A stretch of 31,392 nt of DNA from a virus, in the IMG/VR virus record IMGVR_UViG_3300031539_000190, positions 1 through 31,392 of that record, one strand, 5' to 3'. Below are positions 11,898 to 24,480 of this stretch, piece by piece; position 1 is the first letter of the stretch, and each line of letters begins with the position of its first letter. The translations under genes were made by a program, and so were the position numbers. Below the pieces are notes generated by a model. That model had not been told where the DNA came from. It made no database searches and saw only the letters and a list, made by a program, of their open reading frames with translations.

Positions 11898-13100
11898 TCA
11901 GGCAATATTCTTCAGAAGGACTATTGCCTTGTTGGCCGGCTTTATTGCCCCGCCGCCTACTCTCTTGTGGACCTTGAAGCCCACCAGACCAGACTCAGCG
12001 TATAGCTCAACAAGTCTCTGGAGAGTAATGCCAGCCCGGTCGATGATGCGGTATCCAGCCTTGATGTCGCCGAAGATGGCCACTACCGAGGTATCCCCAG
12101 TAAGAATATCGAGGTCGTCCTGGTTGTAGATTGGCCTGCCCAGGAATGTGTTGGGTCTACCCTCTATAATGCTCGGCTGCCACAGGAACTGACCACTGTA
12201 ACTAACGGCAGGAGTGCTCGCAACAGTGCCAACAGCCCTCAGCTGCCTTATGGCCAACTCAGTAGCGGAGTTCACTATCCAGACACCGTTCCTGCGGTGC
12301 TGGGCGGGACAGGCATACATTACTGCCATAAAGTCCTCAATGGCGGCAGTAAGGGTTGTGCTCACATCCTCACCGGCAGCAACAAGGATGGGCTCTATGG
12401 TGATACCCATAGGCTCTTCCGAGTCATGGCCGGCACCCTTGATGAATGCCAAATCTTCAGCCTCGGCTATTGCTCTAGTGAACGATTCGGCTAGAAGTGC
12501 CTGAAGGTTGAAGTCGCTATCTGCCAGCTCATCCTCACCAATCTTGGCCAGACCATAGAGGTCTTCGGCATACTGATAAGTAGGAGTACCGGGAACTTGA
12601 CTGGATTCAGGAATTTCAGCTCCCGTCTCCAGTTTACCCCATCCCACTGCTACCTCACTGATGCTGCGAACCTTCAGCCGGTCTTTGCCAATTGACCGAA
12701 CAGTCGCCAATGGGCGGATAACAGTTATCTTGGGAAGGGTACGCTCAATCTCGGTTTCGAGTTCTGGAGTAATGAGAATTTGCCCGGTGGTATCCTCTAC
12801 CAGAGCCTTCCGTTCCTCTGGAGTTAGACCCGTGTCGCCGTGCCTCACGAATTTGAAGAAAGCAGCGGTGCGAGCCTTAGACTCTTCAGTCTGCGCATCC
12901 GGGCTACCAGGTGCCGGTACGGTTTGGCGCTGGAGTTTGACCTCCAACTCATCAATGCGCTCATTGCACCTGTCAATGGTCGCCTTGGTTTCAGCCATAG
13001 GTGTACCCAATTTCTTGGTTTCATCCATAGCCTGGTCATATTTCTTGTGCAATTCGGCTACTGCTTCTTGCACAAGTTCAGGTAATGATTTGTCACTCAT
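11898..13100 (-). CDS. Major capsid protein, HK97 fold
   Basis: 400 aa. Residues ~1-65 form a charged coiled coil (AVAELHKKYDQAMDETKKLG; IDRCNERIDELEVKLQRQ), the delta/scaffold domain that the prohead protease removes. The mature part starts near residues 75-110 and shows the HK97 pattern: TTGQILITPELETEIERTLP, LRPLA-like ITVIRPLATVRSI, VGWGKLETGAEIPESS, ALLAESFTRAIAEAEDLAFI KGAG, LWQPSIIEGRPNTFLGRPIY and a final VGFKVHKRVGGGAIKPANKA. ATG 13100 follows GGGAGGTAAAC-like spacing (GGAGG upstream). Co-encoded with its protease directly upstream. Confidence 0.95.
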   Translation of the reverse strand: MSDKSLPELVQEAVAELHKKYDQAMDETKKLGTPMAETKATIDRCNERIDELEVKLQRQTVPAPGSPDAQTEESKARTAAFFKFVRHGDTGLTPEERKALVEDTTGQILITPELETEIERTLPKITVIRPLATVRSIGKDRLKVRSISEVAVGWGKLETGAEIPESSQVPGTPTYQYAEDLYGLAKIGEDELADSDFNLQALLAESFTRAIAEAEDLAFIKGAGHDSEEPMGITIEPILVAAGEDVSTTLTAAIEDFMAVMYACPAQHRRNGVWIVNSATELAIRQLRAVGTVASTPAVSYSGQFLWQPSIIEGRPNTFLGRPIYNQDDLDILTGDTSVVAIFGDIKAGYRIIDRAGITLQRLVELYAESGLVGFKVHKRVGGGAIKPANKAIVLLKNIA

Positions 13101-13117: not shown

Positions 13118-14083
13118 TTATTTTTTCAATTGGTCGAGTATAGCCTCGATACGCTTTTCAGCTTCCTTTGTATCAAAGCCTTCGTTTTCGGCCTTGAGTG
13201 TGTTTACCAATGTCTCCAGTTTCACGGCTTCTGCGGTTGCTTCCTCGGAGAGTTGAGTGGCTTTCGCCGGCTCCTCTTCCCCTTCAAGCGATTCCAGAAG
13301 TGCTTGGAGAGCATCGAAGGCTCTCTTAACCTTCTCAAGATTGACGGCGCTCAAGACACGCCCCGATTTAGACTGCTTCTCAGCAGCCTCAAACTTTCCA
13401 TCGTGGTCTTTACAATGGGTACTAGCTTCACTAGCCTCCCAGACTTCCTTATCATATCTATAGGCTTGCTCGGTCATAGTTGTTTCACCTTCAAGCCTAC
13501 CCATAATGACCGAATACTTTTTGCCATCCGATACCCTGCTAGTTCTACGGAAGCTGTCCGTTTCAAAATCATCAGGGTTGCGAAGCCGGCAGGAATGTTC
13601 TGAGGGAAACGGCTTCAGCTCATCTTGTTTAACGCTGGTGATTCGAGCTTCAGGATTAGCAGCAAAGGTTACTGGAGATATATCATACAAGCGAACCTCT
13701 GCCAAATGCCTAATACCATCTTTATGATATTCCTTAATAACATCATAGCCAATACTCATTTCAGTAATGACGCCGTCCTTCATCAAGCTCAAAACTTCTC
13801 TGGCCCGCTGGACGCCTAAGCTCAATTTACCTACAAAACTTAGCCCAGTTTCATCTTCCGACATTTCAAGGGGCTTGCCTATCGGTTCCATGACATTATG
13901 ATTCCATAGATGCTTTATTCGCCTTTTCCCTTCCTTAATAGTTTTTAGAAAAGCCCCTTTATCAACTATATCGTTGTAACTATCTGGCTTCTCCGCAAAG
14001 GTACTAGCGTGACCCTTGAAAGTCCCCTCCTCTTCATTAACTTCCTTGACTTCAAATTGTAATGTCTTAATCTCTCGATCCAT
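13118..14083 (-). CDS. Prohead protease (HK97 family) with C-terminal extension
   Basis: Start chosen at ATG 14083 (MDREIKTLQFEVKEVNEEEG) with GGGAGG six bases upstream; 321 aa. Residues ~1-155 are the S78-type protease: GHASTFAEKPDSYNDIVDKG AF, HLWNHN with the catalytic His, VITEMSIGYDV with the catalytic Ser, and DISPVTFAANPEA. Residues ~165-240 carry a second conserved module (EHSCRLRNPDDFETDSFRRT; YDKEVWEASEASTHCKDHDG KFEAA) that also occurs attached to other phage proteins. The rest is a charged coiled coil (LSEEATAEAVKLETLVNTLK). Proteases of this family are often 180-230 aa, so the C-terminal part may act as scaffold or cargo. Confidence 0.93.
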   Translation of the reverse strand: MDREIKTLQFEVKEVNEEEGTFKGHASTFAEKPDSYNDIVDKGAFLKTIKEGKRRIKHLWNHNVMEPIGKPLEMSEDETGLSFVGKLSLGVQRAREVLSLMKDGVITEMSIGYDVIKEYHKDGIRHLAEVRLYDISPVTFAANPEARITSVKQDELKPFPSEHSCRLRNPDDFETDSFRRTSRVSDGKKYSVIMGRLEGETTMTEQAYRYDKEVWEASEASTHCKDHDGKFEAAEKQSKSGRVLSAVNLEKVKRAFDALQALLESLEGEEEPAKATQLSEEATAEAVKLETLVNTLKAENEGFDTKEAEKRIEAILDQLKK

Positions 14084-14085
14084 TA

Positions 14086-14241
14086 TTACCTCCCTGATTT
14101 TGGTTTCTTTGCTTCTTCCCCCTCTAACCATGAAGGGCTTAATTCTACTGGTATAAATTCACTACACCCGCAACTGGGGCATGATTCAGTTTCTAAGGTA
14201 ATCATCCGTTTGCAGTTATTACATATCTTGGCTTGAGACAT
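14086..14241 (-). CDS. Small zinc-ribbon protein (51 aa)
   Basis: ATG 14241 follows GGGAGGTAATT. The sequence starts MSQAKICNNCKRMITLETES, then CPSCGCSEFIPVE and a basic end. Two CxxC pairs make a zinc ribbon. Its stop TAA overlaps the RBS spacing of the protease gene, so the two are probably coupled. Function unknown; similar mini zinc ribbons occur at several other points in this genome. Confidence 0.8.
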   Translation of the reverse strand: MSQAKICNNCKRMITLETESCPSCGCSEFIPVELSPSWLEGEEAKKPKSGR

Positions 14242-14498: not shown

Positions 14499-14972
14499 TT
14501 ATCTCCCTGTTTGTTCAAATAAATATTGTGTCGCCTTATCGGATTGGAATATATCCTCAGCTTCGTGACCTAGCCAGAAATACTGAGCTGCAAAAGCTTC
14601 GGCAAAGGCTTCCAATCTATTAGTTTTCGCATACTCATTTACAGGCAAAGCTATATGCTTAAATTCTAAAATCTCATCCAGGCAATGCCCTAGTTCGTGA
14701 ATAACAACATAAGGAAGAGCGTCTTCTAGTAATGGTAACACAACAGTTGTGCGTTCTCGTTTATTAATGGCATTCCAAGGATAACTTACATGAGCTGTGT
14801 TGCGATAAGAACGTTTATCATCTGTTTCTATGTAATTATGTAGCCCTGCAAATACAGGGTCAGTGCCAGTGAAGAAATGCACATGACTTAATTTATTAGC
14901 AATAGCTATCGGAAGAAGGTTAATAGCATAACTAATTCCTTCTGAATATCTATAACTGACTAGCCTTTCCAT
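14499..14972 (-). CDS. Zinc metallopeptidase-like protein (HELGH)
   Basis: Start ATG 14972 (MERLVSYRYSEGISYAINLL), preceded by GGGAGATA and overlapping the stop of the MuF-like gene; 157 aa. Residues 92-96 are HELGH in the context YVVIHELGHCLDE, with EAFAEAFA at 121-128 supplying the likely third metal ligand (Glu). This HExxH + E layout matches gluzincin-type peptidases of the phage minor-head-associated kind. It probably acts on protein, in the procapsid or after ejection. No signal peptide. A structural non-catalytic role cannot be excluded. Confidence 0.8.
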   Translation of the reverse strand: MERLVSYRYSEGISYAINLLPIAIANKLSHVHFFTGTDPVFAGLHNYIETDDKRSYRNTAHVSYPWNAINKRERTTVVLPLLEDALPYVVIHELGHCLDEILEFKHIALPVNEYAKTNRLEAFAEAFAAQYFWLGHEAEDIFQSDKATQYLFEQTGR

Positions 14973-15628
14973 TATCTCCCTGTTCCAAATGCTTCTACGC
15001 ATCTACAGTTAATATCGTTTTCGCCCGGATACATGCTGCCATCAGAGTAAGGTTTATCGAAGGACACATCGTGATTCTCGTCGGTATCCATGAGAACATG
15101 CTCATCTCTCACTCGGCCATCTCTGCTCGAAATCCAACTGTGGGTCTTGACCACTCCACTTTGCCTAGCAGCTTCACGCTGTCCAAAGCCTGCCCCATGA
15201 CTTACCTCAGTTCTCGCTACCCTCATTGCCTTACTAGCCGACTGGTCTGTATAGAACTGCCGGATATTCCTGGCTATCTGCGGAGTGCTCAGGTTCTCAT
15301 CATGCCCGGCCAGGATAACCCGCTTCACGTCGTCAAGGTTCGTCGCCAGGATGGTCTTGATACTCGCAGCTCCGTTCTTGGCTATCCATGCCCTGGCTGC
15401 AGCACTCATCGGGTCAAACGCCCACTTAGTTTCAGCGGGCTTGTCTGACTTTTCGGCTCCTAAGTCATCTGCTATTTCATTACCAAAGTCCTCGATAAGA
15501 GCAGCGGATATTGCAATCAGCATCTTCTCCCATTCAGCCTTCCCGCTGTCTATGGCCCTACTGGCCACTGATATTAGCTGGGCCGACCCCTTGCTTCTAT
15601 ATCGTTGGGTTGCGAGTTGTAATTTCAT
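14972..15628 (-). CDS. Minor head protein, Mu gpF / SPP1 gp7 family
   Basis: 218 aa. The C-terminal half has the family motif set: MRVARTEVSHGAGFGQREAA, then THSWISSRDGRVRDEHVLMD and PGENDINCRCVEAF (the CRC end pair). Known family members sit inside or at the portal vertex and help procapsid assembly and DNA ejection. Encoded two genes after the portal, as usual. Length is on the short side of the family, without a C-terminal toxin or enzymatic extension, but the next gene is a metallopeptidase that some phages fuse here. Confidence 0.9.
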   Translation of the reverse strand: MKLQLATQRYRSKGSAQLISVASRAIDSGKAEWEKMLIAISAALIEDFGNEIADDLGAEKSDKPAETKWAFDPMSAAARAWIAKNGAASIKTILATNLDDVKRVILAGHDENLSTPQIARNIRQFYTDQSASKAMRVARTEVSHGAGFGQREAARQSGVVKTHSWISSRDGRVRDEHVLMDTDENHDVSFDKPYSDGSMYPGENDINCRCVEAFGTGR

Positions 15629-15632
15629 CTAT

Positions 15633-15839
15633 CTACTTCCTTAGGCATCTCCCATTAGCATCAAGGTGGACATCCATGGCTTTGCATTGGCCTCTCTGGT
15701 TCCACCCACAGCTGATATTATCACAGGCTAAACTCACCTTCCCAAGTTTGCATCCTCCACCTTCTATACGGTGGGGACACTTCTTTGCGTGGCAGACATA
15801 GCGCCCAGCGATTCTGACTGCTTCGTGGCACTCGGTCAT
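15633..15839 (-). CDS. Cys-rich small protein, DUF1540-like (68 aa)
   Basis: Eight cysteines in 68 residues: YVCHAKKCPHRIEGGGCKLG and then LACDNISCGWNQRGQCKAMD, ending in GRCLRK. The second half resembles the DUF1540 pattern C....C.WN....C.A..I...... Probably metal binding. ATG 15839 overlaps the portal stop (ATGA), so it is translationally coupled to the portal-methyltransferase gene. Function unknown. Confidence 0.75.
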   Translation of the reverse strand: MTECHEAVRIAGRYVCHAKKCPHRIEGGGCKLGKVSLACDNISCGWNQRGQCKAMDVHLDANGRCLRK

Positions 15840-17854
15840 TTCGGTTCTCCTGCTTTCTTGAGTAGCGAAACAATGATAAGGTGTTTCTCTCCAAACTCAT
15901 CAAAGCTTTCCTCTTGTTCAGTGTATATGTCAAGCACGGTGAAGTTCAAACCCTTGACAAGCCCCAAATACCCATCTTCAGTGATGACCTCTTCTCGCTT
16001 GCCATCAGCAAACTGTGTGTCCCCATATATGTACACAAATGCAAGTCCATCCGTCTTTAATACCCTGTTAACTTCAGGCATAGATTTTTGTAGGTCAGTG
16101 GCGTGCAACACAGACAAGGAGAATACGGACTCAAATTGCCCATCGTCGAATGGCAACTTCTCGGCATTAGCCACCTTGAAATCAATCGATACCTCAGCCT
16201 TCTCCGCGTTTTCCTGAGCAAGTTTAATAGCACTAGGAGCCACGTCAATGGCTGTCACATTCAAACCACCTCTAGCAAAGAAGATAGAATCACGGCCATT
16301 ACCACAACCAATTTCGAGTACTGAGGTGTAGAAAGCATAGAGAGATAACTCCTTTCTAAAGTCCTGAGCAAACAGTGACGGCGTTAAATCTATGGCCCAG
16401 TGAGGGGGATCTTCTGAGTATGCCTCTTCCCAGTCCCGGGGCGATAATGCCTTAACGGTCTTCAGCGCCTTCTCAATGGCTTTAATCTCATCATCATAAA
16501 GCGGTTTAATCTTCTTGGTTACTACTCCCCACCAGCCAACACGCCGCAGGTCTATCCGCTTCCAGTGGATTGTTTTCTGCTCTTCAGTTGAAAGGTTGAG
16601 AGCTTTGGTCATCATCTTCTGTGGCTCCGCCGGTGGTACCGAACCAGTCGGCAATAACATCATGGGCAAATAGCCAGTATCCCAGCCGGGGAACTCGCTG
16701 AACCCCATCTCCAATCTCTCGTTTATCTGGTCGAAGGGGACTCCCATGGACCAGAGGTTCTTAGCCTGGTCAACCTTCTTGGTAAAGTCCTCTCTAAGAG
16801 CAACTACCTTTGAAGTATCATAGGAGATTGTGATACTAGGATACATCGGCGCAACCCTGAGACCAAGCGTTGATTTGATGTCATCGAGTAATGGGATAAC
16901 AACATCCTCGTATAGTGCTTTCCTCGCTTCTGCCATGTTGGCATAACTGGAGTGCTCCATATCCCCTAAGAATATCGAGCTAATCCCGAAGGCTCCGGCA
17001 ATGTCACGCTTGTTGGTAAGACGGGACTTGATGAAGTCCATCTCCACCGGGGTCAGGCTCATCTGGTGCCACTTCCCCCCAGCTACCACCCAGGGCATAC
17101 GCCTCTTTACTTTGGCTAAGTAGCGCTCTTGAACCTGTCGGTCTGCTTCCTCATACTGCTCATTTGTTAAAGCATCAGTTTCGAAAACACCATCTGGGAT
17201 GCCCCTGTTCTGCATGCTTATCTTCTGCGTGTCCTGCGCCTCGTTATCAGTGTCGACAGTCCTTGATATCGCTTGAAGAGGCCCAATTCCCCAATAGGGA
17301 TTACCGGGGTTGATCATCATAAAATGGATAAACTGCTCCGGTGGCACGATTTGCTGTCTACCGTCTATACTCGTTACCTCATAGCCTTTGAGCCATTGCC
17401 CCGGCACATCTGATGGGATTGGATGGATAAGGTCCGGCATGCAAACCCAGTATTCCCGGGGTCGGCCCCCTACAATAATCGGCTGAATCAATGCGTTACC
17501 GACTAACAATTGATGAGCAATAATGAGCTCCATATTGTCTTGCCCGGAGAACTGCGGGTTGGGATTTGCCCAGGCCTTGCTGAAGGGATGGTCAAGAATA
17601 ATCTCACCCTCTTTATCAAGAGCTACCCAGGGAATGGCTGAAGCCGCTTGCACAATCACCCTGATGGCACGATAGACATCCCCTGATATTTTATATCCTT
17701 CTCGAACAGCCTTGCGAACTGTTAAGTCAGTATAAATCGGAATGTCAGCGGTCTGCACAGACAGTATTTGATACGGGCCCAAGGAAGTGCCTCTACCATT
17801 TGCCTTTGGGAAAATAGCAGAAGCGACTTTGCTGCGTAATCTATTCATTACCAT
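15836..17854 (-). CDS. Portal protein fused to a class I SAM methyltransferase
   Basis: Start ATG 17854 (MVMNRLRSKVASAIFPKANG) just after the terminase stop; 672 aa in one uninterrupted frame. Residues ~1-410 are an HK97-type portal: SGDVYRAIRVIVQAASAIPW, HFMMINPGNPYWGIGPLQAI, LTNKRDIAGAFGISSIFLGD, and LREDFTKKVDQAKNLWSMGV. Residues ~415-470 are a helical linker (TEEQKTIHWKRIDLRR). Residues ~473-672 are a methyltransferase: motif I VLEIGCGNGRDS at about 512, acidic loop VTAIDVAPSAIKLAQENAEK, motif around KLPFDDGQFESVFSLSVLHA, and VLKTDGLAFVYIYG. No NPPY/SPPY, so the substrate is more likely protein or a small molecule than DNA. Portal proteins usually end near 400-450 aa. Confidence 0.92.
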   Translation of the reverse strand: MVMNRLRSKVASAIFPKANGRGTSLGPYQILSVQTADIPIYTDLTVRKAVREGYKISGDVYRAIRVIVQAASAIPWVALDKEGEIILDHPFSKAWANPNPQFSGQDNMELIIAHQLLVGNALIQPIIVGGRPREYWVCMPDLIHPIPSDVPGQWLKGYEVTSIDGRQQIVPPEQFIHFMMINPGNPYWGIGPLQAISRTVDTDNEAQDTQKISMQNRGIPDGVFETDALTNEQYEEADRQVQERYLAKVKRRMPWVVAGGKWHQMSLTPVEMDFIKSRLTNKRDIAGAFGISSIFLGDMEHSSYANMAEARKALYEDVVIPLLDDIKSTLGLRVAPMYPSITISYDTSKVVALREDFTKKVDQAKNLWSMGVPFDQINERLEMGFSEFPGWDTGYLPMMLLPTGSVPPAEPQKMMTKALNLSTEEQKTIHWKRIDLRRVGWWGVVTKKIKPLYDDEIKAIEKALKTVKALSPRDWEEAYSEDPPHWAIDLTPSLFAQDFRKELSLYAFYTSVLEIGCGNGRDSIFFARGGLNVTAIDVAPSAIKLAQENAEKAEVSIDFKVANAEKLPFDDGQFESVFSLSVLHATDLQKSMPEVNRVLKTDGLAFVYIYGDTQFADGKREEVITEDGYLGLVKGLNFTVLDIYTEQEESFDEFGEKHLIIVSLLKKAGEPK

Positions 17855-17855
17855 T

Positions 17856-19157
17856 TTATCCAAACCTCGTAAGTTTTTCTGGCTTTTCAAGCATTAGCTC
17901 AGTTATCGCCCAGACTAGGGCATCTAGCCGGTCAGGTGATTTGTCCCCTGGTACCCACTCGCACATCTGGTCTTCTAACTCCGAAAAGAATCCGACATGA
18001 TGAACTCTTCCCTGCTCATATAAGGCTGACACCGGCTCGGCCCTGATTGCCTTGCCCCGGCTGGCATGGACTTTCTTGAAAGACACCGACTTATCAATTA
18101 TCCTGATGATGCTCTCGACCATATCCCCGCCGAAGTTCACTTCGCCCACTATCCGGTCAGCCTTGAAGTTATAGTAACCACTCACCGCAGCGGTCGCCCA
18201 CTTCTCAGGAGTTCCGCTCAGTGTCAGGTCGGCCAAGACAAAGGCTTCTTGCCGGTCAGCAACTTGCGCTACGCCGGCAACCACAATCCCTGTCGATGAC
18301 GAGGTATCGCTATCGGTTCCTTGTGGGTCTATGGCCACCACTATTCTTTTCAGCTCAGGATACTTCCGCACCCTCAGCTCATCTATCTTAGCTCGCTCCC
18401 ATAGAGCGTCTGGGTTATCGTCGAGTATCTCACCAGCCAGCTCTTGGCGCCCAAGCCTAGTGCCTTCATACTTCCTCAGTATATAGCGCAAGAAGTCTGG
18501 AGCCAGGTTGTCTTTATTCTCCAGTGTATGCCCTCGAGTAACCGCCGTCCTCTCATCTGCTATTAAGTCCTTGATGACTTTAATGGGCTTCGGCGTGGTG
18601 GTAACAACTGCCTGAGGGTGATTGCCAATCCTCAGACCGAACATCAAGTTATCCCAGGAATCCTTTGGGTATTTGAACTTGGCCAGCTCATCTACCCACG
18701 CCTTCTGATGCTGCGGTCCCCTGAGCTGCTCTGGCTCATCCCCGGAATAGATTATGCCCAGCACTCCGTTCGGCCATATCAGCCGTCTCTTCGATGGTTC
18801 GTATTCTGGCATGAACCAGGGGGGGCTGATATTGAGTATAGCCGAGTCGCCGACCTCAACCATGGTGTCCCGGACGTCGGCCTTAGTCTGCCCTACCAGT
18901 GCTATCGGGCTAAATCCTTCCCTCGCCCACTTATTGATTAGCTCGGCGCCAGCCCGTGTCTTCCCACCGCCTCGACCTGATAAAAGAAGCCAGATATACC
19001 AGTCCCAATCGGGAGGGAGCTGCTTAGGTCTAGCCCAGAATTCCCAGTCATATAGGAGAGATTCAGCTTCCTTGTTCGTCAGGCTCTTGAGTGTCTTCTG
19101 CCTCTCCTGTTCTGGCAGCAAGGCGATTGATTGCGCTAATGAGTTTTTGTTTGACAT
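17856..19157 (-). CDS. Terminase large subunit (TerL)
   Basis: 433 aa from ATG 19157. Near the N-terminus KEAESLLYDWEFWARPKQLP leads into Walker A LLLSGRGGGKTRAGAEL (about residues 58-74), then Walker B-like KAWVDELAKF and the coupling motif VVTTTPKP. The RNase H-like nuclease has VVAIDPQGTDSDTSSSTG with its first Asp, FVLADLTLSGTPEKW with the second, and SPDRLDALVWAITEL with the third. It cuts and pumps DNA into the procapsid through the portal. The gene begins inside the small subunit gene; the ~95-nt overlap is larger than usual, but the N-terminal part is conserved in the family, so the start looks right. Confidence 0.95.
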   Translation of the reverse strand: MSNKNSLAQSIALLPEQERQKTLKSLTNKEAESLLYDWEFWARPKQLPPDWDWYIWLLLSGRGGGKTRAGAELINKWAREGFSPIALVGQTKADVRDTMVEVGDSAILNISPPWFMPEYEPSKRRLIWPNGVLGIIYSGDEPEQLRGPQHQKAWVDELAKFKYPKDSWDNLMFGLRIGNHPQAVVTTTPKPIKVIKDLIADERTAVTRGHTLENKDNLAPDFLRYILRKYEGTRLGRQELAGEILDDNPDALWERAKIDELRVRKYPELKRIVVAIDPQGTDSDTSSSTGIVVAGVAQVADRQEAFVLADLTLSGTPEKWATAAVSGYYNFKADRIVGEVNFGGDMVESIIRIIDKSVSFKKVHASRGKAIRAEPVSALYEQGRVHHVGFFSELEDQMCEWVPGDKSPDRLDALVWAITELMLEKPEKLTRFG

Positions 19158-19479
19158 CAAATTCTATTCCTATCGGCCCGCCACCTTCTCCGGCAATCGG
19201 TTGTGTGACCTTCCCCTCTAGTCTGTCCAGGAGCTCGCAGAAATAAACAGCGTTCTTTACAGCTTTCTCTAGCCATTGGTCTACCAAATACTCAGCCCAG
19301 GTTTTACCCTCATCATGGGGACAAGGTTGCCCGAGTTTCTTTCTGGCGATGGCCGTTAAGCACAGCCTGTTAGTGGGGCGCCCGTTTGGATTTCGTGCCT
19401 CTCCTGGCTGTATCGGCTTGAGGTTTTTAATCGAGTTCGGATGCTTGCCTAATGCGTAAGTCTTTTTCTCTTGTGTCAT
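19063..19479 (-). CDS. Terminase small subunit (DUF5681-type)
   Basis: 138 aa. Residues ~20-40 (LKPIQPGEARNPNGRPTNRL) match the QPGE..NP.GRP signature of DUF5681 proteins, followed by LTAIARKKLGQPCPHDEGKT and WAEYLVDQWLEKAVKNAVYF. The C-terminus (GKVTQPIAGEGGGPIGIEF) is also typical. Position directly before and overlapping TerL supports a DNA-recognition role in packaging. The start overlaps the stop of a small, apparently frameshifted Cys gene (ATGA). Confidence 0.85.
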   Translation of the reverse strand: MTQEKKTYALGKHPNSIKNLKPIQPGEARNPNGRPTNRLCLTAIARKKLGQPCPHDEGKTWAEYLVDQWLEKAVKNAVYFCELLDRLEGKVTQPIAGEGGGPIGIEFDVKQKLISAINRLAARTGEAEDTQEPDEQGS

Positions 19480-22767: not shown

Positions 22768-23156
22768 GCTGTCTCCTGCTTTAATAGCTCCTTCAAAATA
22801 ATCATATCTAGCTTATCGTCTCTTTTCTTATAGGTATGCGCCCGAACATCAAGTAAATCAAAGCCTTTATCGCCAAGTTTCTTTCTCATATAAGCTGTGT
22901 ATTCATTCCGCCCATCTCCGTGACCCCAGCCAAATTTATGGTGATACCAGCAAAGTGAGTCGCAATTCTCAGGATCAAACCTCGTATTTTCATGTCCTCT
23001 GCCCCAATAATGGCTACAATGCAAACCTCGTTTGTTTTCAGAATAATCCTTACTCCCATTCTCCAAATCACAGGCTATACACCGCCAGCCATCTTTAGTC
23101 CTGATATAAATGGAGAATAGCTTATCTGTTTTCCTTTCTTTGGCCTTGAACATCAT
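22749..23156 (-). CDS. ninG: NinG/Rap-like recombination protein
   Basis: Start chosen at ATG 23156 (or the next ATG), which has GGAG upstream inside the methyltransferase gene; 135 aa. Pattern: TKDGWRCIACDLENGSKDYS, then GLHCSHYWGRGHENTRFDPE, NCDSLCWYHHKFGWGH. The C..C, HCSH, GRGH..TRFDP.NC...C..HH series matches lambda NinG (Rap), a Holliday-structure-specific nuclease of phage recombination. In lambda, ninG also lies between replication genes and Q, as here. A role as a general HNH-like nuclease is an alternative. Confidence 0.8.
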   Translation of the reverse strand: MMFKAKERKTDKLFSIYIRTKDGWRCIACDLENGSKDYSENKRGLHCSHYWGRGHENTRFDPENCDSLCWYHHKFGWGHGDGRNEYTAYMRKKLGDKGFDLLDVRAHTYKKRDDKLDMIILKELLKQETAGALIE

Positions 23157-24480
23157 ATCTCCATAACTTCTTGAACACCAAAATATCTTCCTTGTCCAGT
23201 ACCGGCGCATCGGGATACTTCTGTTGGTAAATAGTCCGCCAGAAGGATTGGCTTGTGAGTTTCCGATAATGCCTTTCAATAAACTGGAATCCAGCTTGCT
23301 CACATAGTTTTATCGTGTCGAGGTCAAGCCGGACCTCCTGTTTTTCCCTGATAAAGTTCTTAGTAACGAGAATCATTAAGCCCTGGGGTTTCAACACACG
23401 CCAGCACCCTTGATAGACCTCTAGCATAGCGGAGAGGTAGGATTCACCTTTGAGGTTGCCTATGTTTCCAGGAGCTGTGCCATAACCAGCTTCTAATCCC
23501 TGCCAAGCTATATTCCCTTTGCTGAAATAAACATCATCTCTTTGCCCTAGTTTTTGACCTGCTTGTATTTTCCGTCTTTTGTTTTCACCGTCATATTTCA
23601 TCGGTGTTTCATACGGCGGGCTTGTAATTACACAGTCTATGTTGCCATAGGGAAGATTGCCTAGATTGTCCATAGATTCTGAATAAGCAACAAGCGGAGG
23701 TCTATACTTGTCAGGATGCCGTTCCTTATGGCGTTGTTCTCTATCAAATGTAGCTTTGGGTCTATTGTTGTCAGAGACGCCCCATTGAGAGGCATAAGGC
23801 GGCGAGGTCATAATGACATCGGCTAACTTACCGTAAGGGAGATTGCCGATATTGGAGGGATTATCAGGATTATAGTCGGCTTCGTGTTGATGCCAATTAT
23901 CCGCTATCTCAATTCTATCAGCTATGTCATTATGTCCAGAGGCTCGCAATCTTTTCACTCTATTTTTACCGCCATCTTGGTCCGCCATTAGTGTCTCAGC
24001 ATAAGGTGGAGATGAAATCACTACATCAGCCAATGCCTGTCTATATCCCATCCTTTGGGGGTCGCCATCATTAACCGCCACATCGGATAAACGATTGCCA
24101 TATGGCGGAGAACTGATTATTGCGTCAGCTAACACATCAGGTAACTTTCTAGCATCGCCTTGCATGATTGTCGCCGTTCCCATCTCGTAGCCCATTTCAG
24201 GGCCAAGAGTTTGAATCTTAGTCCAGTTATCCTCCTGCATCTGGACAAACTTGGACTCCAGCTCAACCAAGATAATATGTCTCCCCATTGTGCAGGCTAT
24301 GAGTAGCGTTCCCTGGCCGGCCATGGGGTCGAGTATCACGTCCCCGGGCCGGGAATACCTCTCTATAATCCAGCGCTGCAAGGGCAGCATCATCTTAGCA
24401 GGGTGAGCGAATGAGCCAGCACTAAAGTATCTGTCTCTGTGCTTCTTGTCCGCTTTGAAAGTTATCTCTTGGGGTTTCAT
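23122..24480 (-). CDS. DNA methyltransferase (N4/N6 type) with four SPPY motifs
   Basis: 452 aa. Residues ~25-80 hold the SAM-binding end: HPAKMMLPLQRWIIERYSRP, VILDPMAGQGTLLIA (motif I at 51-60) and HIILVELESKF. The catalytic motif IV appears four times: SPPY at 124-127, 157-160, 226-229 and 287-290, each preceded by ADVIITS-like residues; two are introduced by IGNLPYG or LGNLPYG. The C-terminal part has CWRVLKPQGLMILVTKNFIR. One SPPY is the rule for these amino-methyltransferases. Likely modifies phage or host DNA, for example against restriction; target unknown. No restriction partner nearby. Confidence 0.9.
   Translation of the reverse strand: MKPQEITFKADKKHRDRYFSAGSFAHPAKMMLPLQRWIIERYSRPGDVILDPMAGQGTLLIACTMGRHIILVELESKFVQMQEDNWTKIQTLGPEMGYEMGTATIMQGDARKLPDVLADAIISSPPYGNRLSDVAVNDGDPQRMGYRQALADVVISSPPYAETLMADQDGGKNRVKRLRASGHNDIADRIEIADNWHQHEADYNPDNPSNIGNLPYGKLADVIMTSPPYASQWGVSDNNRPKATFDREQRHKERHPDKYRPPLVAYSESMDNLGNLPYGNIDCVITSPPYETPMKYDGENKRRKIQAGQKLGQRDDVYFSKGNIAWQGLEAGYGTAPGNIGNLKGESYLSAMLEVYQGCWRVLKPQGLMILVTKNFIREKQEVRLDLDTIKLCEQAGFQFIERHYRKLTSQSFWRTIYQQKYPDAPVLDKEDILVFKKLWRYDVQGQRKENR

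Follow-up and report, generated by a model that had tools for sequence, protein, structure and literature searches.

Structure of the fusion gene

The window, that is, the whole 31,392-nucleotide stretch of viral DNA that was analysed (an IMG/VR virus contig), derives from a temperate, siphovirus-like phage encoding an integrase, a tail tape measure protein, a distal tail protein and a Cas4-type exonuclease. Among its head genes (Table 1) lies a single open frame at 15836-17854 on the minus strand, which translates into 672 residues plus a stop with zero internal stops. A preliminary description of this DNA had read the frame as an HK97-type portal joined through a linker to a complete class I methyltransferase (MTase), and had named two findings that would speak against it: an interruption by a stop or frameshift within residues 410-480, or the lack of a methyltransferase fold at residues 473-672. 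There is no such interruption, and the fold is present.

Table 1. Positions of the cassette and the neighbouring head genes in the window
Feature	Position	Strand	Basis or remark
Large terminase	17856..19160	-	PF03237/PF17289; stop ends 1 base ahead of the portal ATG
N-terminal portal portion, residues 1-469	16448..17854	-	PF04860, phrog_2662, phmmer, alignment with L007-L009
Class I SAM methyltransferase domain, residues 470-672	15839..16447	-	In frame with the portal; Methyltransf_11, AlphaFold2, Foldseek, alignment, dN/dS
Second cassette gene, for the 68-aa Cys-rich protein	15633..15839	-	ATG overlaps the MTase stop (ATGA)
Shine-Dalgarno-like AAGGAAG	15636..15642	-	7 bases ahead of the MuF start codon, from the sequence
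MuF-type minor head protein, separate ORF, 218 aa	14972..15628	-	PF04233, 5.9e-10; phrog_2662 positions 524-704, 1.1e-24
Prohead serine protease (S78)	13118..14131	-	PF04586, 1.9e-28
HK97-type major capsid protein	11898..13100	-	PF05065, 1.4e-42

The portal part consists of an HK97-type core (residues ~1-410) and a helical linker (~415-469). Residues 60-372 match Pfam Phage_portal over profile positions 3-310 of 321 (PF04860, 9e-52), and at 176.7 bits against a curated cut-off of 39.1 this match places the protein among the HK97-type portals; the NCBIfam model TIGR01537 scores 109.8 bits, slightly below its cut-off of 112.05. The match to phrog_2662 spans residues 43-474, and phmmer relates the portal part to that of RcGTA (6te8/6tba, 1.3e-27).

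Within the C-terminal domain, residues 513-606 match Methyltransf_11 (1e-21) and Methyltransf_25 (3.4e-21). For the MTase part, AlphaFold2 gave a confident Rossmann-type model (pLDDT 92.4), and among solved structures Foldseek matched this model to class I methyltransferases, 6mro being the best (E 2.5e-14). Together with this Rossmann-like fold, a GxGxG motif I (VLEIGCGNGRDS), an acidic residue after strand 2 and the acidic loop VTAIDVAP, both sequence motifs being as first described, identify the domain as a class I SAM methyltransferase. G47, G51 and D68 are invariant across 33 relatives, as are 18 columns overall (alignment A3). An assembly artefact as the source of the fusion was ruled out, since the same fusion occurs in L006, which comes from another sample and whose portal and MTase are 73% and 90% identical to those of the window, and also in L004/L005 and L002/L003.

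Downstream, the MuF ORF matches the C-terminal half of phrog_2662, the same portal-MuF family that covers the portal, and carries no extra C-terminal domain. In L007, L008 and L009, the closest relatives lacking the cassette, a homologous portal, linker and MuF form one ORF of 663-698 aa that has no MTase, and the separate MuF ORF of the window corresponds to the C-terminal half of that protein, a relationship missed in the preliminary description. The putative ribosome site AAGGAAG would be what supplies the MuF gene with its own start after insertion. The MTase of the window comes after the linker, whereas in L002, whose portal is 65% identical, it precedes the linker, which there forms part of the MuF gene; the insertion point therefore varies even among close relatives.

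Two further ORFs of the window may be recorded. Behind MuF in the head block, a 167-aa ORF (14499-15002) has a weak match to the phrog_87 metallo-protease (2e-5), and at 23122-24480 there is a second, conventional DNA-methyltransferase-like protein (phrog_67), with matches scattered over an unusually long ORF. An intron, riboswitch or other RNA element was considered and dropped, as the window and five loci gave no Rfam match.

The cysteine-rich companion gene

While the portal-MTase fusion was correctly recognised at the outset, the preliminary description missed the small gene at 15633-15839 and, with it, the mobile cassette that the two genes form. A Cys-rich gene lies directly downstream of the MTase in 37/37 members of the first set of relatives and, in the wider set, behind every MTase where the sequence reaches, with L181 as the sole exception. 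Seven cysteines are invariant in the family (alignment A4, 34 sequences). The protein has zero matches in Pfam, NCBIfam, PADLOC and the PDB, and none in cultured phages; by these sequence searches it constitutes a family without earlier description.

The zinc activator Trm112, a small Cys/zinc protein that is the obligate partner activating class I methyltransferases (PMC5372719), offers a possible model for the pair. It is an analogy only, as PF03966 is absent and the window's Cys-rich protein has no Trm112p match, nor any other Pfam match. The Cys-rich protein is probably zinc-binding, a suggestion that in its more general form, as metal binding, amounts to a guess, because the protein could not be modelled with confidence (pLDDT 50; the model was unused for fold search).

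Distribution and fusion partners

Scanning IMG/VR with MTase and Cys-rich profiles yielded 48 related MTases in 43 clusters at 95% identity; the cluster counts are at contig level, and several contigs apparently come from the same sites. In most clusters the enzyme is fused to a head protein. By tally 28/43 clusters are portal-fused, with the truncated L169, L173 and L185 assigned through resemblance rather than by scan. By profile, the portals include PF04860 types (part of the 28), Portal_Mu (the L111, L146, L130, L120 group) and Phage_portal_3 (L112, L121, L141), and the portal of L107 was assigned to phrog_10963 through its resemblance to the scanned L108 portal. In L127 the partner is a portal-MuF ORF, with the MTase C-terminal to the MuF domain.

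The other partners are a 65-aa head-module protein (four clusters: L108, L118, L126, L172), recognised from its stand-alone form in L224; an S78 prohead protease in L143 (Pfam 3e-4, phrog_617 1e-12); a giant protein without family assignment in L117; a 255-aa preceding part, likewise without family assignment, in L109; and, in L181 (4636-11670), a 2344-aa LPD38 polyvalent protein that carries an MTase relative at residues 458-640 and has no Cys-rich partner. Besides a portal-MuF protein, the 65-aa protein and a prohead protease, the N-terminal partners thus include portals of no fewer than four families. The MTase forms its own ORF in 6/43 clusters, almost bare in L110 and L149 and with 37-81 aa extensions in L025, L128, L147 and L165; in one cluster (L144) it is cut by the contig end. 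The stand-alone cassette of L149 (5361-6195) belongs to a T4-like phage, where it is flanked by a head-closure-like gene and gp15; its MTase is very divergent.

For the 65-aa partner, a reading as split MuF in L108, L118, L126 and L172 was rejected, because in L224-L226 this segment of 65-70 aa is encoded by a small gene of its own. A conserved ORF of 65-100 aa, without earlier description, stands between portal and MuF in L224 (2177-2374), L225 (5465-5779) and L226 (1351-1620); its pattern is NPxSxKNEKxEKxMExS..YF, and the one example tested has no PHROG or NCBIfam match.

Every copy of the cassette seen lies among virion genes, including those in records of 30-96 kb, and in 12/12 larger records it is single-copy and always within the virion block. 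Cultured phages gave generic MTase matches only, at less than 40% identity. The best 80 genome matches of the MTase are likewise generic, the top one being 41% identical over ~105 aa, and 0/80 have a Cys gene nearby. The Cys profile was absent from sets of 7, 400, 395 and 247 genomes (~1,050 in total, scanned with no positive control). Short patterns were in addition scanned over 84,980 species; in this sampling of cells no copy of the cassette came up among the matches listed, and a cellular source is conceivable.

Transfer between partners and sites without the cassette

The MTases remain 50-76% identical where the N-terminal parts give no BLAST similarity; between the window and L107, for example, the MTases are 60% identical and the N-terminal parts show none. 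By parsimony, the MTase tree requires a minimum of 12 changes of partner class; in this tree the class 'MuF_N' denotes the 65-aa head-module protein. From these comparisons of sequence, the MTase/Cys pair is a mobile two-gene cassette that has moved repeatedly among partners of unrelated families.

The manner of insertion can be seen by comparing L142 with the cassette-free L218, whose portals are 97% identical. Their DNA is 94% identical up to the portal's last codons and ~85% identical from the next gene's ATG, and where L218 has ~41 bp encoding the last codons of the portal, L142 has 878 bp, ending exactly at that ATG. The same picture is obtained for L130 against L202 and for L107 against L224. 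In L172 the MTase extends the 65-aa ORF found in L224. Within one gene order, L107 has the cassette at one junction and L172 at the junction next to it. Relative to cassette-free phages, the cassette of ~0.9 kb takes the place of the final codons, stop included, of the gene upstream, in frame.

The L142 insert has no recombinase, clear terminal repeats or target duplication, and so does not resemble a transposon or IS-like element; recombination at gene junctions is therefore likelier than transposition. By eye, a GIY-YIG-like ORF lies directly behind the Cys-rich gene in L140 (1551-2177), and an HNH-like ORF occupies the portal/next-gene junction of a cassette-free relative, L223 (4158-4835). 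With endonuclease-like ORFs at or near the same junctions, homing-type help is possible. Other small ORFs sit at the portal/MuF junction of the cassette-free Portal_Mu phages L212 (4419-4712) and L213 (4410-4805), and from such arrangements this junction looks like a general insertion site.

One explanation of these data is that the cassette is a selfish hitch-hiker that spreads where head genes adjoin, through recombination or homing, and persists because it is fused to an essential gene, with an activity that serves its own spread or little else. Its frequent moves between unrelated partners and the endonuclease-like ORFs of L140 and L223 would fit. However, the cassette itself contains neither recombinase nor nuclease, the L142 insert lacks the marks of transposition noted above, and the MTase is more constrained than the portal, unlike an inert passenger. 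Between the window and L006, dN is 0.068 for the MTase (dN/dS 0.058) and 0.181 for the portal, for which dS is saturated. As estimated from this pair, the MTase is under strong purifying selection (dN/dS ~0.06), and we regard the hitch-hiker explanation as improbable.

The fusion itself also appears to be under selection. Most fusions keep a remnant of an internal start, M-T/S-P-x-D/E-W, for which no ribosome site is obvious, whereas AAAGGAGG is present in L110, which stands alone. Since the second junction of the cassette uses ATGA stop-start re-initiation, expression does not need a fusion, and the loss of the MTase's own start therefore looks selected.

Relation to known systems

Iyer et al. 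(2017) described PBECR RNase, 2H phosphoesterase and InPase domains fused to portal or MuF within the virion gene block, and these domains, together with large polyvalent proteins, were proposed to be packaged and injected (PMC5512222). The enzyme of the window resembles such effectors in that it forms part of a head protein whose gene lies among the late genes, and its relative in L181 shares a protein with LPD38, a large-polyvalent-protein domain. It differs in having a dedicated Cys-rich gene and in re-attaching to many unrelated portals and head proteins; moreover, no Methyltransf_11-type enzyme figures among the portal fusions in the portion of that survey considered here. The original statement that no standard portal has such a domain accordingly stands for this MTase, which was found on no portal in 50,697 phage records, while it falls for enzymatic domains in general, as other fusions to portal or MuF had already been described there (PMC5512222).

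In MuF polymorphic toxins, too, a head protein encoded beside the portal gene bears a C-terminal enzymatic domain, and a small ORF follows (Jamet et al. 2017, PMC5576092). The cassette might by this likeness be a toxin-immunity type of module, in which the MTase is a MuF-like polymorphic effector and the immunity protein is encoded by the Cys-rich ORF, and the effector-then-small-ORF order and the MTase C-terminal to MuF in L127 point that way. Yet the cassette consists of one enzyme family and one small-protein family, mostly on portals, rather than polymorphic sets, and is not known to be toxic; the small ORF is conserved as much as the enzyme and does not vary across partners; and the window's MuF has no added domain. 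We consider this explanation even less probable than the hitch-hiker.

We found no published paper on portal-methyltransferase fusions. Portals are usually regarded as conserved passive channels. The gain of one and the same constrained enzyme by four or more portal families, with a strict companion from a new small-protein family, suggests that portal C-termini tolerate folded domains of ~200 residues, which would be useful for cargo loading. The natural pairs with and without the cassette, down to 97% portal identity, make enzyme loading into the capsid testable with matched variants.

A possible role in the virus particle

The repeated attachment to unrelated head proteins suggests that the enzyme is built into the virus particle, which probably carries it; its incorporation, substrate and delivery are what we infer from the comparisons above. 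In the mechanism envisaged, a head-module gene such as the portal gene would receive the two-gene cassette, the MTase being translated as an in-frame C-terminal extension and the coupled second gene giving a small Cys-rich, probably zinc-binding protein as a co-assembled partner or activator. Fusion would tether the enzyme to proteins entering the procapsid, so that up to 12 copies per portal may line the portal vertex on its inner side and be packaged. Portal C-termini can make long barrels inside the capsid, as in P22 (PMC4992974). As virion cargo in the manner of the portal/MuF-fused effectors and large polyvalent proteins, the MTase might, while packaging proceeds, modify the DNA or a component of the head. 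Alternatively, it might modify a host target at an early stage of infection, perhaps once the prohead protease has freed it.

Because of the location of the partners, the precedent of portal/MuF-fused effectors (PMC5512222) and the presence of a relative inside a large polyvalent protein, virion cargo tethered to capsid-internal proteins is the best reading of the cassette, at slightly better than an even chance; the preliminary description was right to call a cargo role conceivable. Tethering is not obligatory, given the six clusters in which the MTase is its own ORF, and since portals remain in the particle, delivery to the host would need cleavage. A more far-reaching version, of which we are tentative, is that of a 'capsid-tagging' module: MTase and Cys-rich (metal) partner would spread among unrelated tailed phages by capturing the C-termini of head genes. 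Portals would thereby become 12-fold rings of enzyme within the capsid, with packaged DNA, head proteins or, post-ejection, a host target as what they modify.

The main rival to virion cargo is action in the producing cell. The fusion partners are neighbours in gene order, and position rather than localisation could therefore be the selected trait. Phage morons are extra genes between structural genes that are missing from close relatives, and the cassette shares both properties, although it has no transcription unit of its own and is translated as an extension of an upstream structural protein. As a late-operon moron, the enzyme would act on small molecules, proteins or nucleic acids in the infected cell, its fusion being an expression device or a by-product of insertion at the much-used portal/next-gene junction, with no cargo involved. 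The fold is a compact one, and the nearest structures by Foldseek are small-molecule methyltransferases and structural-genomics entries (6mro, 4nec, Rv0560c, TehB); these, the free-standing copies in L110 and L149, and the other inserts at the same junction in L212, L213 and L223 agree with this rival. Conversely, ATGA coupling would be enough for expression, yet most partner changes end as in-frame fusions with neither stop nor ribosome site, and all copies seen lie among virion genes, even in the records of 30-96 kb. Action in the producing cell is thus unlikely, if by some way the most credible of the alternatives to virion cargo.

With regard to the enzyme type, no NCBIfam model for a functional equivalog (TehB, ArsM, UbiG and others) reaches its cut-off, the scores falling far under it (MduS, 65.7 against 380; TehB, 36.6 against 218). 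In PADLOC, the profile of the defence-system protein mad2 ranks first (1e-18); a defence or resistance enzyme was rejected, this match being read as the common MTase domain only. The motif [DNS]PP[YFW] of DNA amino-methyltransferases (N6A/N4C) is absent from 48/48 MTases, which extends to the relatives what had been noted for the window.

That the MTase and a nucleic-acid-binding Cys-rich partner methylate phage DNA at the portal or in the filled head is the least probable explanation, in spite of a location adjoining the incoming DNA, the mad2 match and the precedent of P1 DarB, a methylase carried in the phage head that protects DNA in cis (PMC5512222), for unlike DarB, an adenine methylase-helicase acting on DNA, the enzyme has neither the amino-methyltransferase motif nor a helicase, no target-recognition domain accompanies it, and the window already encodes a conventional DNA-methyltransferase-like protein.

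Lastly, inteins occur in the portal ORFs of two cassette carriers, L133 (2116-5799) and L165 (3405-5951), with Intein_splicing/Hint and LAGLIDADG matches, and the MuF ORF behind the cassette of L108 (6213-7625) has an intein-splicing match as well.
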